A DNA stretch of 64,000 nucleotides from Rhodospirillum rubrum ATCC 11170 (GTDB lineage Bacteria > Pseudomonadota > Alphaproteobacteria > Rhodospirillales > Rhodospirillaceae). Made by a program: the position numbers and the translations under genes. The stretch is from assembly GCF_000013085.1 (NCBI RefSeq), contig NC_007643.1, positions 1,287,001 to 1,351,000 on the forward strand, in the 5' to 3' direction. Shown piece after piece: positions 57,523 to 64,000 of the stretch (the first letter of the stretch is position 1; every line of letters begins with the position of its first letter). The notes beneath the pieces were generated by a model. That model was not told the origin of the DNA. It saw only the letters and a list, made by a program, of their open reading frames with translations, and did no database searches.

Positions 57523-57651
57523 TCCCCAGGTCTGACTCTCCTTTCGGCGGGGCGTCGCGACCCGGCTCTGGGGTATCGGGGGGCGTTGCCGCAGGTCGCC
57601 GGGTTCGGTCCGCGCCCCCATCAATGAAGAATGATCAGGGGAGTGAAGCCC

Positions 57652-59667
57652 ATGCCCGACAGAGCGTCCGCGCCGCGTGTGGCGGCGATCGTTGGGCCTT
57701 ACGCCAGTGGCAAGACCAGTCTTTTGGAAAGCCTGCTGCTGGCGACCGAGGCCATCCACCGCAAGGGAACGATCCAAGACCACAATACCGTCGGCGATTC
57801 CTCTCCCGAAGCCCGCGACCGAGAAATGGGCGTCGAGGTCAATCTGGCCGAAACCACCTATCTTGGCGGACAATGGACCTTTCTCGACTGTCCGGGATCG
57901 GTCGAGTTCATGCAAGACACCTATAACGCGCTGACCGTCTGCGATGTCGCCGTCGTCGTCTGCGAACCCGATCCCGCCCGCGCCGTGATGCTGACGCCGC
58001 TGTTGAAATTCCTCGATAGCCGCGCCATCCCCCATATGATCTTCATCAACAAGATCGAAACCACCGAAACCCACCTGCGCGACATGATCGAGGCCCTGCA
58101 GATGGTCTCGACCAAGCCGCTGGTCGCCCGCGAGATTCCCATCCGCGAAGACGGCAAGGTGGTTGGCTATCTCGATCTGGTCAGCGAGCGCGCCTATCGC
58201 TACAAGCCGGGCGAGGCCAGCGATCTGATCTCGATCCCCGAGGATCTGAAAGACCGCCACGTCAACGAACGCCAGGAGCTTTTGGAAAATCTGGCCGATT
58301 ACGACGACGCCCTGCTCGAGGGGCTGTTGTCGGACGTGGTGCCGCCCAAGGGCGCGGTCTATGACTCCCTGGCCCGCGATCTGGCCGAGGATCTGGTGGT
58401 GCCGGTGTTCTTTGGCGGCGCCCTGGCCGATAACGGCATCCGCCGCCTGCTCAAGGCGCTCCGCCACGAAAGCCCGACGCTGGAGGAGACCCGCGCCCGC
58501 CTGGGCATCGAAGGCAAGGGGCCGGTCATCCAGGTCTTCAAGACCCAGCACGCCGAGCATATGGGCAAGCTGTCGTTGGCCCGGCTATGGAACGGCACCT
58601 TGAAGGATGGTCAGGCGCTGAACGGCGATCGCGCCACCGGGCTTTTCAGCTTCCCGGCCGGCCAGCAAGCCAAGGTCGATAGTGTCGGCGCCGGGGCGGT
58701 CGTGGGCATCGGCAAGCTGGAAAAGCTGTCGACCGGCGCCCTGGTTGGCGGCGACAGCGCCGCCGACGACCCGCCGGTCCTGGGACCGCTGTTCGCCCTT
58801 GCCCTGCATGCCCGCAAACAGGGCGACGATGTCAAGCTGACCGGCGCCCTGGCCAAGCTGTGCGAGGAGGATCCCTCGCTGCGCGTCGAAAACAATCCCG
58901 ACACCGCCGAGCTGCTGCTGTGGGGGCAGGGCGATATCCATCTGCAGATCGCCGTGCGCCGGCTGGCCCGCCAGTTCCACGTCGAGGTCGAGGCCCATCG
59001 TCCGCAGGTGCCCTATAAGGAGACCATCCGCAAGGCGACCAGCCGCCAGGGCCGCTTCAAGCGCCAGACCGGCGGCCACGGCCAATTCGGCGATGTGCAT
59101 CTCGATATCAAGCCGCTGTCGCGCGGCGAAGGCTTCGTCTTCACCGACAGCATCACCGGCGGCGTGGTCCCCCGGCAGTATATTCCGGCGGTCGAACAGG
59201 GGATCCGCGAGTTCCTGCCGCGCGGCCCCTTGGGCTTCCCGGTGGTCGATGTCGGCGTCACCTTGACCGATGGCAGCTATCACGTGGTCGACAGCTCGGA
59301 ACAGGCCTTCAAATCGGCCGCCCAGCTGGCGATGCGCGAGGGCATGCCGGCCTGCGAGCCGGTGCTGCTTGAACCGATCCTGCGCGTCGAGATCAGCGTG
59401 CCGACCGACGCCACCAGCCGGGCCCAGCGCGCCCTGACCACACGGCGCGGCCAGATCCTCGGCTATACGCCCAAAGAGGGGTGGAGCGGCTGGGACGTGG
59501 TCGAGGGCTATCTGCCCCAATCCGAAATGCACGATCTGATCACCGATCTGCGCTCGGCGACCATGGGCGTGGGCACCTTCGCCTGGAGCTTCGACCACCT
59601 GCAAGAGGTCATCGGCAAACAGGCCGACGAGGTGGTCACCGCCCGCAAACTGGTTTTGGCCGGCTAA
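57652..59667 (+). CDS. EF-G paralogue (FusA2-like GTPase)
   Basis: 671-aa translational GTPase related to elongation factor G, about 30 residues shorter than canonical FusA. The P-loop reads GPYASGKTS, G3 is DCPGS in place of DTPGH, and G4 is NKIE in place of NKxD, so GTP binding or hydrolysis may be altered. Domains II-V follow: GGHGQFGDVHLDIKPL, then the SYHVVDSSEQAFKSAAQ region. GGGGAG precedes ATG 57652. It is not near rpsL/rpsG/tuf, as expected for a paralogue. Roles of such proteins in ribosome recycling or stress are known for only a few species. Confidence 0.88.
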   Translation: MPDRASAPRVAAIVGPYASGKTSLLESLLLATEAIHRKGTIQDHNTVGDSSPEARDREMGVEVNLAETTYLGGQWTFLDCPGSVEFMQDTYNALTVCDVAVVVCEPDPARAVMLTPLLKFLDSRAIPHMIFINKIETTETHLRDMIEALQMVSTKPLVAREIPIREDGKVVGYLDLVSERAYRYKPGEASDLISIPEDLKDRHVNERQELLENLADYDDALLEGLLSDVVPPKGAVYDSLARDLAEDLVVPVFFGGALADNGIRRLLKALRHESPTLEETRARLGIEGKGPVIQVFKTQHAEHMGKLSLARLWNGTLKDGQALNGDRATGLFSFPAGQQAKVDSVGAGAVVGIGKLEKLSTGALVGGDSAADDPPVLGPLFALALHARKQGDDVKLTGALAKLCEEDPSLRVENNPDTAELLLWGQGDIHLQIAVRRLARQFHVEVEAHRPQVPYKETIRKATSRQGRFKRQTGGHGQFGDVHLDIKPLSRGEGFVFTDSITGGVVPRQYIPAVEQGIREFLPRGPLGFPVVDVGVTLTDGSYHVVDSSEQAFKSAAQLAMREGMPACEPVLLEPILRVEISVPTDATSRAQRALTTRRGQILGYTPKEGWSGWDVVEGYLPQSEMHDLITDLRSATMGVGTFAWSFDHLQEVIGKQADEVVTARKLVLAG

Positions 59668-59811: not shown

Positions 59812-60627
59812 TCATGGGGCGTTTCCAGATTTCTGCTGATCGGGCGGTGGAATGAGGCCGGGCCAGTAAAAGGCGTCGGCGGTCGGACGGGGGCCGAAGA
59901 TGGCTTGGCCGACGCGAACGACATCGGCGCCTTCCTCGATGGCCGCCTCGTAGTCCCCCGACATGCCCATCGACAGTTGCGTCATGCCGGGATGGAGGGT
60001 GGCGGTCTGGTCGCGCAGAGCGCGCAGCAAGCGGAAGCACGTCCGCACACGGTCGGTATCGGCGCTGAAGATCGCCAGCGTCATCAGGCCGCGCGGCTTC
60101 AGGCGGGGGTAGTCCGCCAAGCGTTCTACGAACGGTATCACTTCGGCGGGGGGCAAACCGTATTTGCTGGCTTCGCCGGAGGTGTTCACCTGCACGAACA
60201 CGTCGAGATCGCGCCCCTGCGCGTCAAGGCGGCGGTTCATCTCCTCCGCCAGCCGCAGGCTGTCGAGGGCGTGGAATTCCGCGGCGAAGCGGACAAGATA
60301 TTTCACCTTGTTGGTCTGGAGGTGGCCGATGATGCTCCAACGGATCGCGAGATCGGCAAGCTCGACCTGCTTGTCGCGCGCCTCTTGCAGCTTGTTCTCG
60401 GCGAAGTCGGAGAGGCCCGCCGCGAAGGCCAGACGCAAGAGAGGGGCCGGAACCGTCTTGGTGACGGGGAGCAGACGCACCTCCTCGGGCTGACGGCCGC
60501 ATCGACGGCAAGCCGAGGCGATGCGGTCTCGCACAGTCAGCAAGTTGGCGGCAAAGGCGCGGGCGGGATCCGTCCCGAAGCGCGCCACGTCTTCCTCTGA
60601 AAGATCGACGGTCAATGAGTCTGTCAT
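59812..60627 (-). CDS. YggS/PLPBP family PLP-binding protein
   Basis: 271-aa fold-type III protein related to alanine racemase N-domains. The PLP lysine is in LLPVTKTVP, followed by FAENKLQEARDK, WSIIGHLQTNKVKY and the C-terminal SMGMSGDYEAAIEEGADVVRVGQAIFG. YggS keeps PLP homeostasis and has no racemase activity in most species. This copy follows the SHMT gene by 28 nt on the same strand, so it may be a specialised paralogue, possibly acting on the amino acid handled by that operon. Confidence 0.88.
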   Translation of the reverse strand: MTDSLTVDLSEEDVARFGTDPARAFAANLLTVRDRIASACRRCGRQPEEVRLLPVTKTVPAPLLRLAFAAGLSDFAENKLQEARDKQVELADLAIRWSIIGHLQTNKVKYLVRFAAEFHALDSLRLAEEMNRRLDAQGRDLDVFVQVNTSGEASKYGLPPAEVIPFVERLADYPRLKPRGLMTLAIFSADTDRVRTCFRLLRALRDQTATLHPGMTQLSMGMSGDYEAAIEEGADVVRVGQAIFGPRPTADAFYWPGLIPPPDQQKSGNAP

Positions 60628-60655: not shown

Positions 60656-61960
60656 TCAGTAAGGCAGGGGAAAACCCGCCACGAGGCTGCGCACCCGGGT
60701 GCGGATGCCCTCCCGGTCGGCCTCGAGCGTCCCGGCGCGCACAGCGTGCAGCGTCTCGAGGATCAACGCGGCGATCCGCCGATACTCCTCGGGTCCAAAC
60801 CCGCGCGAGGTTCCCGCCGCGCTGCCGACCCGGATGCCCGAGGTCACCATCGGCTTTTCGGGATCGTTGGGGATCGCATTCTTGTTGAGGGTGATGCCGA
60901 TCGATTCCAGGGCCTGTTCGGCGATGGTACCGGTGACACCAAGGGGGCGCAGATCGACCACCGCCAGATGGCAGTCGGTCCCGCCACTGGTGATCGCCAG
61001 TCCGCCGTCGAGGAGCGTTTGGGCGAGAACGCGGCAATTCTCGACGACACGCCGCGCATAGATCTTGAACGAGGGATCGAGCGCCTCGCCAAACGCCACG
61101 GCCTTGGCCGCGATGATGTGCATGAGCGGACCGCCTTGCAGGCCGGGAAAGACCGCCGAGTTGATCTTCTTGGCGATCGCGGCGTCATTGGTCAGGACGA
61201 ACCCGCCCCGCGGCCCGCGCAGCGTCTTGTGCGTGGTCGAGGTGATGACATCAGCGAAGGGCACCGGCGACGGATACACCCCGCCAGCGACCAACCCGGC
61301 GAAATGCGCCATATCGACCATCAAGATCGCCCCCACCTCGTCGGCGATCTGGCGGAAGCGCGCAAAGTCCAGGAGGCGCGGATAGGCCGACCCGCCGGCG
61401 ATCAGCAGCTTCGGCCGGTGCCGGCGGGCAAGGTCCGCCATCTGCTCCATGTCGATGAGATGGGTTCGCGGGTCCACGCCATAGCTGACGGCCGTGAACC
61501 AACGGCCGGAGATATTGACCGGGGCGCCATGGGTGAGATGGCCGCCGGCCTTAAGGTCGAGCCCCAGGATGGTGTCACCGGGGGCGAGAAGCGCCAAAAA
61601 GACCGCCTGATTGGCTTGGCTGCCCGAATGGGGCTGGACGTTGGCGTAGGTGCTGCCGAAAAGCTGGTTGAGGCGGGCGATCGCCAGATCCTCGACCCTA
61701 TCGACGTTCGCGCATCCGCCATAATAGCGGCGCTGCGGATAGCCCTCGGCATATTTGTTGGTGAGCACGGACCCCTGCGCCTCGAGCACCGCCTTGCTCA
61801 CAAAGTTCTCCGAGGCGATCAACTCGATGGACTCGCGCTGGCGTGTCGTCTCCTGGGCGATGGCGATGGCAACGGCGTCATCGGCGGCGGACAAACAGGC
61901 GGCGTTGACGCCTGCGCAGGGGGCGTTCCGGAGTGCGGGGGGCGCGACCGATGCTTCCAT
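60656..61960 (-). CDS. Serine hydroxymethyltransferase paralogue
   Basis: 434-aa PLP enzyme of the GlyA family. The [20 protein letters not shown] segment, [13 protein letters not shown], and the PLP-lysine motif [13 protein letters not shown] are present. The segment [14 protein letters not shown] replaces the usual LAHGGHLTHG, a difference that might reflect an altered substrate such as an alpha-methylserine-type amino acid. ATG 61960 has AAGGAGAG upstream. Its location between yggS and a mocR-type regulator, with a shared operator motif, suggests a catabolic rather than housekeeping role. Confidence 0.88.
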
Positions 61961-62064
61961 CACGGATCTCTCCTTGTTGATGCTGGTAAGGGCCTGATCC
62001 TGGTAAGGGGCCCTGCGCCGCGCCGGTTTGACGCGGCGGCTTCCGTTAGCACCTAATCATGGAG

Positions 62065-62109
62065 ATGGTCTGATAAGCCCTGCCATTTTCAGCAAATCAT
62101 TCAGACCAT
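62065..62109. promoter_or_regulatory. Inverted-repeat operator pair upstream of SHMT gene
   Basis: ATGGTCTGA (62065-62073) and TCAGACCAT (62101-62109) are exact inverted copies 27 nt apart, about 105-150 nt before the SHMT start. A further ATGGTC is at 62135-62140. The same motif with the same gap recurs at 63666-63710. Confidence 0.65.
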
Positions 62110-62174
62110 TTGCGCCGCAGGCGCGCCATGTCCGATGGTCCTGTCCAGTCTGATGTCTGGCGTGCGGGGGTATC

Positions 62175-63665
62175 CTATGGCCTTGTCACCGCCCGCAGCG
62201 CCTTTTCCAGTTTCCTCACGGCCTCCTCGATTTCGAGGGGCGTATAGGCGGCAAAGCCCATCAGGAAGCCGGCTTTGCCATCGCCGGCGGCGTGCAACGC
62301 CGACAAGCCGAGCAACTCGATCCCGACCCGTCGCGCCGCGTCGATGGCGGTGCGTTCCGAGAGGTCGCGGGTCAACAGACAGGGCAGTTGCAGCCCGCCA
62401 ATGGGAACGCGCGGCTCGACGAAATCCGCCAGATGCTTGCTGACAAGGCCGGCCAGGAGGGCGAGCCGCTCGGCATAGACGCCGCGCATGGTGCGAACAT
62501 ACGCCCCGAAATGCCCCCCTTCCATAAAGCGGGCCAGCGTCAGTTGCGCCATGGGGGCCGTATGGCCATCAAGCAAGGTGCGGGCGACGGTCATCGGCTT
62601 CACCAGCGGCGGGGGCAAGACGACATAGCCGATCCGCAAGCCCGGAAAGAGCGATTTGGTGAAGGTGCCGATGTAGAGGGTGCGGTCATGCTTATCGAGA
62701 CCTTGCACGCAGGCCGTCGGCTTGCCCGCGTAGTGGAACTCGCTGTCGTAATCGTCTTCGATGATCCACGCCTGAGTCCGCGCCGCCCATTCGATCAGCG
62801 CCAGACGGCGGTCCAGCGCCAGCGTCGCGCCGGTCGGAAACTGGTGGGATGGCGTCAGGAAAACCGCCTTGGCCCCGTGCGGTTCGGCCATGATTTGATC
62901 GACCACGATACCTTGCCGGTCGACAGGGATCGGAACGCAGTCCAGCCCCGCCGCATCGAACGCCTTGCGCGCCCCGTAATAGGCGGGGTCTTCAAGGAAG
63001 ATCCGGTCGCCGGGATCAAGCAGCATGGTCGCGCATAGCGACATCGCCTGTTGCGAACTGGTCAGCACCAGCACGCGGTCGGCCGTGGCGCGGGCGCCGC
63101 GTTCCAGGTTCACATAGTCGGCGATGGCGCGGCGAAGCGCCTCGGTCCCCTGCGGGTCGCCATGAAACAGGGTTTGCGCGCCGACCTCCTTGCGCACCTG
63201 CCGTTCCAGACGTTCCCAGAGTTGGAGGGGAAAGGTTCGGGTTTCCGGCACCCCATGAGCGAAAGGCCGTGGGGCGAGCATCTCGCGAACGCCGCCACTG
63301 CGGAACATGGCCGCCCCCCGGGTGCTGAGAGTGGGAGCTTGGTTGCGCAAGAGCGCATCCCGCTGGGAAAGGGGACGGCTGGGCATGAACTCGGTCATTT
63401 CCGCCACGAAGCTGCCGCTTCCCACGCGCCGGTCGATGAACCCCTCGGCATGAAGTTGGGAATAGGCCGCTTCGATCGTGTCGCGCGATACCCCAAGCGA
63501 TGTGGCGAGGGCGCGCGAGGCGGGCAGCGGCTTGCCCGCTCCCAGCGCGCCGTCGACGATCAATTGCCGAATGGCCCGCTGAATCCGCGCGTGAAGCGGC
63601 ATCACCGCATGGGCGGGATGGGCAATCCATGCCTTTACGGAATCCAGTTGGGAATGCTTGAACAA
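62175..63665 (-). CDS. MocR/PdxR-type GntR-aminotransferase regulator
   Basis: 496-aa chimeric regulator. An N-terminal winged HTH (about residues 18-88; AGKPLPASRALATSLGVSRDT) is joined to a class I aminotransferase-like domain (about 120-490), whose PLP lysine lies in GTFTKSLFPGLRIGYVV. Such proteins sense PLP adducts or amino acids. It is upstream of the SHMT and yggS genes on the same strand and divergent from the BenE-type gene. Matching inverted-repeat pairs in front of both transcription units are its likely binding sites. Confidence 0.93.
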   Translation of the reverse strand: MFKHSQLDSVKAWIAHPAHAVMPLHARIQRAIRQLIVDGALGAGKPLPASRALATSLGVSRDTIEAAYSQLHAEGFIDRRVGSGSFVAEMTEFMPSRPLSQRDALLRNQAPTLSTRGAAMFRSGGVREMLAPRPFAHGVPETRTFPLQLWERLERQVRKEVGAQTLFHGDPQGTEALRRAIADYVNLERGARATADRVLVLTSSQQAMSLCATMLLDPGDRIFLEDPAYYGARKAFDAAGLDCVPIPVDRQGIVVDQIMAEPHGAKAVFLTPSHQFPTGATLALDRRLALIEWAARTQAWIIEDDYDSEFHYAGKPTACVQGLDKHDRTLYIGTFTKSLFPGLRIGYVVLPPPLVKPMTVARTLLDGHTAPMAQLTLARFMEGGHFGAYVRTMRGVYAERLALLAGLVSKHLADFVEPRVPIGGLQLPCLLTRDLSERTAIDAARRVGIELLGLSALHAAGDGKAGFLMGFAAYTPLEIEEAVRKLEKALRAVTRP

Positions 63666-63710
63666 ATGGTCTGGTCCCCTCGAAAAAAGTGGCTGGGCAT
63701 ATCAGGCCAT
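63666..63710. promoter_or_regulatory. Inverted-repeat operator pair between mocR and benE
   Basis: ATGGTCTGG (63666-63674) and TCAGGCCAT (63702-63710) form an inverted pair with the same 27-nt gap as the pair at 62065-62109, each arm differing from it by one base. The left arm abuts the mocR start codon. A related TCAGACC lies at 63751-63757. Confidence 0.65.
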
Positions 63711-63780
63711 TCATCGGCTAAGTGTCAAGCCGACTGATTGCCATTGCGGCTCAGACCTTCAGGGGTTTCGTCACAGCCAT

Positions 63781-64000
63781 GCCATCCAGCTCAGCATCCC
63801 TTCGCCTCAACGATCTTACCCATCCCATCGTGGCGGGTCTGATCTCCGTCATCGTCAATTATGGCGGCACCTTCATTCTGGTCTTTCAGGCGGCGCAGGT
63901 CGCCGGCCTCGACCCTGACGTCACGGTCTCTTGGGTCTGGTCGGTTTCCATCGGCGTCGGGGTGACGGGGCTGTTCCTGAGCTGGCGCTATCGCGAGCCG
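63781..64000 (+). CDS. BenE-type membrane transporter, N-terminal part
   Basis: The first 73 codons are present before the window ends. The sequence DLTHPIVAGLISVIVNYGG and then VSWVWSVSIGVG, with two clear membrane helices, matches the BenE/YdcO family of proton-coupled benzoate-type transporters. True substrates vary. It is divergent from the mocR-type gene across a 115-nt region with the operator pair, so its expression is probably controlled by that regulator. Confidence 0.8.

Follow-up and report, generated by a model that had tools for sequence, protein, structure and literature searches.

Characterised PdxR proteins, namely those of B. clausii, L. monocytogenes, S. pyogenes and C. glutamicum, come from Firmicutes and Actinobacteria and are MocR regulators encoded divergently from or beside vitamin B6 genes, where they use three-box operators, regulate their own genes and activate pdxST or pdxKU in the absence of B6. 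In Streptococcus pyogenes, PdxR switches on pdxKU when B6 is absent and is its own repressor (PMC11619246), and operators with a direct-direct-inverted arrangement of boxes have been described for PdxR (PMC4944035). In the comparative analysis by Suvorova & Rodionov (2016), this arrangement is the commonest MocR motif structure, and predicted PdxR regulons comprise pdxK, enzymes of the BioF and ArgD families, GlyA-family serine hydroxymethyltransferase (SHMT) and COG325 (YggS), as well as the BenE family as a putative pyridoxine transporter, the co-occurrence of BenE and GlyA being a predicted functional link (PMC5320631). Related MocR proteins include GabR of Bacillus subtilis, which carries a PLP cofactor, responds to GABA and activates a divergent operon, and PtsJ of Salmonella, a repressor that controls the pyridoxal/pyridoxine kinase gene and itself.

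A regulon of a PdxR-type MocR regulator, dedicated to vitamin B6 salvage and combining activation of target operons with mocR autorepression, is very likely also present in Rhodospirillum rubrum ATCC 11170, where it lies at the end of the 64,000-nt stretch of contig NC_007643.1 analysed here (the window; Table 1). Every gene of the locus fits the gene list predicted for PdxR regulons (PMC5320631); the place of the BioF-like enzyme is taken in R. rubrum by a 5-aminolevulinate synthase (ALAS), and the promoter phasing and second-copy status of the genes are documented here. Compared with the regulons of Firmicutes and Actinobacteria, BenE takes the place of PdxU, pdxST is absent from the locus and a second operon, SHMT with yggS, is added, while autoregulation and activation in the absence of B6 may, by analogy, operate likewise.

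Table 1. Genes, operators and predicted promoter elements of the proposed R. rubrum B6 salvage regulon (window positions; L009, DNA extending beyond the window)
Feature	Position	Strand or placement	Details
yggS (COG0325, PLP homeostasis protein), second copy	59812..60627	-	NCBIfam 170.4, cut-off 106.25
SHMT, second copy	60656..61963	-	start GTG 61963 or ATG 61960; NCBIfam 604.9, cut-off 335
-10-like element of SHMT operon, predicted	62050..62055	-	TAGGTG; 9 bp past operator 1
Operator 1, toward SHMT	62065..62109	-	box 1 62108-62102, box 2 62085-62079, inverted box 3 62072-62066; profile 44.2
mocR, PdxR-type MocR regulator	62175..63665	-	496 aa, TTG start; NCBIfam PdxR 392.7 bits, cut-off 320
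Operator 2, toward benE	63666..63710	+	box 1 63667-63673, box 2 63690-63696, inverted box 3 63703-63709; profile 55.8
-10-like element of benE, predicted	63719..63724	+	TAAGTG; 8 bp past operator 2
-35 of mocR, predicted	63723..63728	-	TTGACA; overlaps benE -10 region
benE	63779..64000 in window (cut by its end); whole gene L009:10779-12005	+	NCBIfam BenE 391.2, cut-off 203.4
Pyridoxal kinase (pdxK)	L009:12002-12868	downstream of benE	NCBIfam 206.9, cut-off 144.5
ALAS	L009:12865-14130	downstream of pdxK	NCBIfam 591.4, cut-off 338.55
ArgD-type aminotransferase	L009:14124-15311	downstream of ALAS	acetylornithine-type transaminase model 582, cut-off 372

The window holds only the first 222 bases of benE, and the genes from benE to the argD-like gene were followed in the adjoining DNA (L009:10779-15311). 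Each of benE, pdxK, ALAS and argD-like overlaps the preceding gene by a few bases in an operon-like manner, and pyridoxal kinase also adjoins benE in several relatives. The description of the module as self-contained, given in a first-pass annotation, does not hold within the window, since three more genes come after benE. The ALAS also scores 338 bits against the bioF model, as a BioF-like alpha-oxoamine synthase. Beside this operon, two minus-strand genes of the type III CRISPR-associated RAMP family were observed (L009:15394-18970; genome 1355394-1358970), whose proteins match TIGR03986 above its cut-off and a Csx7-like model below cut-off. On the other side and outside the module, a 678-residue open frame (57631-59667, plus strand) reads like an elongation-factor-G-type GTPase.

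The protein encoded by mocR has the architecture of the MocR/GabR subfamily, with an N-terminal GntR winged helix (Pfam GntR, residues 26-87) and a C-terminal fold-type-I aminotransferase-like domain (Aminotran_1_2, residues 163-409), both above cut-off. It passes the curated PdxR model NF052282; the raw score of the rhizopine MocR model is higher (415.2 bits), yet that model's cut-off of 650 is not reached, and the models of GabR (264.4, cut-off 600) and PtsJ (a weak 87.2 bits, cut-off 573) also fall short. Among PDB entries, 7pq9, taken here as Bacillus clausii PdxR, is the best match along almost the entire protein. The protein shares a common fold with GabR, with which its TFTKSLFPGLRIGY stretch, in the region that usually holds the PLP lysine, can be aligned. 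As expected of a PdxR, genes of PLP biosynthesis or salvage follow the operators (pyridoxal kinase behind operator 2, yggS behind operator 1), and direct and inverted boxes lie beside both regulator and target. The TTG start codon of mocR touches the edge of operator 2. TTG is used by 43 of 49 mocR orthologs and ATG by the remaining six, in which the operator, where found, is shifted upstream. In codons 2-21 most of the variation falls on the third position (mean entropy at the three positions 0.51, 0.38 and 1.33), so these codons are translated; on these grounds, together with the ortholog start codons, a later start was rejected.

The presence of two sites with a common motif and an equal 27-nt gap, noted in the first reading, was confirmed by a pattern search of the window, in which ATGGTCTGA-N27-TCAGACCAT was found at operator 1 without mismatches and ATGGTCTGG-N27-TCAGGCCAT at operator 2 with two; judged by 100 shuffled versions of the window, no such site is expected by chance. 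Frequent recurrence of the pair by chance was not seen either, since a pattern search of the whole genome (a 4,352,825-base contig and a small second contig, together 4,406,557 bases) with ATGGYCTGR-N27-YCAGRCCAT returned the two operators only. When three mismatches were allowed, a single additional match appeared at position 244900, which was rejected as a third operator because it lacks the third box described below and has an operator-profile score of about -26.

The 27-nt gap of the first reading is an incomplete description, as it contains a third box, AArTGGnnGG, which in the profile of orthologous operators is conserved as strongly as the outer boxes. The operator is thus a 45-bp direct-direct-inverted element (TGGTCTG, TGGnnGG and inverted CAGnCCA), and the third box is present in 42 of 42 benE-side sites. 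A three-box pattern finds both operators in the 4.4 Mb at 0 mismatches and no further site at one or two mismatches. The operator profile was trained on 41 orthologous operators, from which the R. rubrum genome and SHMT-side sites were left out; the scores of the two held-out R. rubrum operators (Table 1) compare with a chance maximum of 13.6, the best among 60 simulated 64-kb sequences. The next-best positions in the window (5.9 and 3.6) are overlapping registers of the same operators and are followed by a score of 2.2, and no such operator was found in the neighbourhoods of a paralogous MocR (40% identical), the housekeeping SHMT or the housekeeping ALAS.

Conservation of the operators was examined in regulator orthologs from the same order and from named genomes, including Microvirga, Ancylobacter, Kaistia, Ensifer, Azospirillum, Pectobacterium, Pandoraea, Acidovorax and Pseudomonas. 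More than 40 orthologs keep the three-box operator, which is conserved in alpha-, beta- and gammaproteobacteria alike, and in dozens of proteobacterial orthologs the last base of the mocR/benE operator abuts the mocR start codon. The same-direction order of mocR and SHMT is found in seven genomes of the set, R. rubrum included, and the profile scores of the SHMT-side operator range from 32 to 46 in six of these seven; that of Rhodopseudomonas (L105) is weak (13.0). Among three genomes with yggS alone, a second operator is present in two (24.7 and 21.5) and none was found in the third. One relative (L027) without benE beside mocR keeps the SHMT-side operator and lacks the mocR-side one, and is a useful natural control. 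An alphaproteobacterial-type locus with an 80% identical regulator and the same operator also turned up on a contig labelled Bacillus subtilis strain SK6B4 (L095), which suggests contamination or mislabelling of the record.

Because the third box renders the operator asymmetric, its orientation can be read, and it is identical relative to benE and to SHMT. In 42 of 42 benE-side sites a TA follows the operator at a distance of exactly 8 bases, against a background of about 0.05 per position, although these sites share ancestry, and at this -10-like position 18 of 22 beta- and gammaproteobacterial sites have TATAAA, which is close to the bacterial -10 consensus. No -35-like hexamer was found at the matching spacing toward either benE or SHMT. 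On the SHMT side the TA element stands 8 bp past the operator in most relatives and 9 bp past it in R. rubrum, and both R. rubrum -10-like elements match TATAAT poorly. Activated promoters are laid out in this way, with a -10 element and a regulator site that replaces the -35. On the opposite strand, GTCAA occurs in 19 of 20 alphaproteobacterial sites and the full TGTCAA in 12; the predicted TTGACA-like -35 of mocR overlaps the benE -10 and the mocR start region lies within the operator, so that binding should repress mocR. This geometry suggests that a regulator bound at the operators would activate both the benE and the SHMT operons and repress its own gene, in agreement with S. pyogenes PdxR.

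The direction of regulation might be the opposite, with benE and SHMT repressed and PLP either releasing or engaging repression, as in Salmonella, where the B6 salvage regulator PtsJ, also of the MocR family, represses pdxK. The operator is within promoter reach, and a bound regulator could block RNA polymerase; nevertheless, such a repressor is unlikely, as the fixed spacing of operator and -10, the missing -35 at the expected spacing and the TATAAA of beta- and gammaproteobacterial relatives favour activation, and characterised PdxR proteins are activators. The inverted repeats are also intergenic, with operator 1 located 3' of mocR, and might be terminators, attenuators or chance repeats of no regulatory meaning. 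This explanation is scarcely credible for elements that are unique in the genome, conserved in sequence, spacing and position over three proteobacterial classes, built of three boxes including a direct repeat and, in the case of operator 2, placed between divergent genes. A terminator or attenuator at operator 1 in particular was rejected, as the motif recurs in the divergent intergenic region with its orientation conserved relative to two promoters.

It is highly doubtful that the regulator and BenE serve another compound used by the PLP enzymes, for instance an amino acid or an aromatic, benzoate-type substrate. The BenE family owes its name to benzoate transport, and the regulator is matched by the rhizopine MocR model as well. 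Moreover, the BenE and GlyA families are likewise found in MocR regulons of unknown function (PMC5320631). Against this stand the pyridoxal kinase gene, which is part of the operon and lies beside benE in several relatives, the role of yggS as a PLP-homeostasis gene and the clearance of the PdxR cut-off by the regulator. The transporter gene, mocR itself and the SHMT-yggS pair are probably under the control of one MocR-family regulator, as both operators are conserved with their genes in other genera. This central proposal of the first-pass annotation stands, while its account of the gap, of the extent of the module and of an unknown substrate was incomplete, the evidence pointing to vitamin B6 and to a regulon type already predicted in 2016 (PMC5320631).

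The sites, their conservation and phasing, the gene content and the family assignments are features of the locus as observed; from them we infer that the regulator binds, in which direction it acts, that PLP is its effector and what BenE transports. In the proposed B6 salvage model, the PLP-free regulator would bind the three-box operators when PLP is low, activating the benE-pdxK-ALAS-argD-like and SHMT-yggS operons and, through the overlap of operator 2 with the divergent mocR promoter, repressing mocR. BenE would then import an unphosphorylated B6 vitamer, which PdxK would phosphorylate, and YggS would buffer PLP, whereas SHMT, ALAS and the aminotransferase would be PLP-using enzymes co-induced with the salvage genes. 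Plentiful PLP would occupy the aminotransferase-like domain of the regulator and activation would stop. BenE, a member of its family by model score, is predicted from its context to be a candidate vitamin B6 transporter; a BenE protein shown to transport B6 was not found in the literature, and searches on PdxR in R. rubrum and on a B6 transport role of BenE returned the 2016 prediction only, its supplementary tables aside.

Several enzymes of the regulon are second copies. The R. rubrum genome encodes paralogs of the regulon SHMT (61% identical), ALAS (a divergent copy, 54% identical to the other) and YggS (42% identical). Exactly two SHMT genes are present in all six tested alphaproteobacterial relatives that have the regulon SHMT; their regulon versions are 79-84% and their other copies 62-65% identical to the R. 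rubrum regulon SHMT. Two YggS copies occur in nine of nine genomes tested, the second being 35-42% identical to the regulon copy. The regulon SHMT and YggS form tight groups of their own (73-84% identical to the R. rubrum copies), so that the regulon carries dedicated versions of both in every alphaproteobacterial genome checked. ALAS is a regulon member in R. rubrum only, among the loci examined, and no close relatives of it were found at strict cut-offs in the order (317 genomes) or the class (385 genomes). One speculative and rather improbable explanation is that SHMT, YggS and, in R. rubrum, ALAS are scarcity isozymes, second copies adapted to PLP limitation and induced by PdxR; a parallel would be the zinc-sparing paralogs induced through Zur during zinc starvation.

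The locus is a further, or perhaps an already listed, member of the predicted kind of PdxR regulon. Its promoter phasing, the membership of ALAS and the dedicated second copies of SHMT and YggS are mildly new, and the present analysis adds the operator-promoter geometry over some 40 genomes, the genome-wide uniqueness of the operators and the two-copy pattern. The conserved phasing of operator and promoter makes the activation model directly testable, and the locus raises the question of why a B6-sensing regulator should govern a second SHMT, YggS and, in R. rubrum, a tetrapyrrole enzyme, ALAS. For most bacterial species the vitamin B6 transporters have yet to be identified (PMC9997740), and BenE, encoded beside pyridoxal kinase under a PdxR-type operator, offers a clear and genetically testable candidate.
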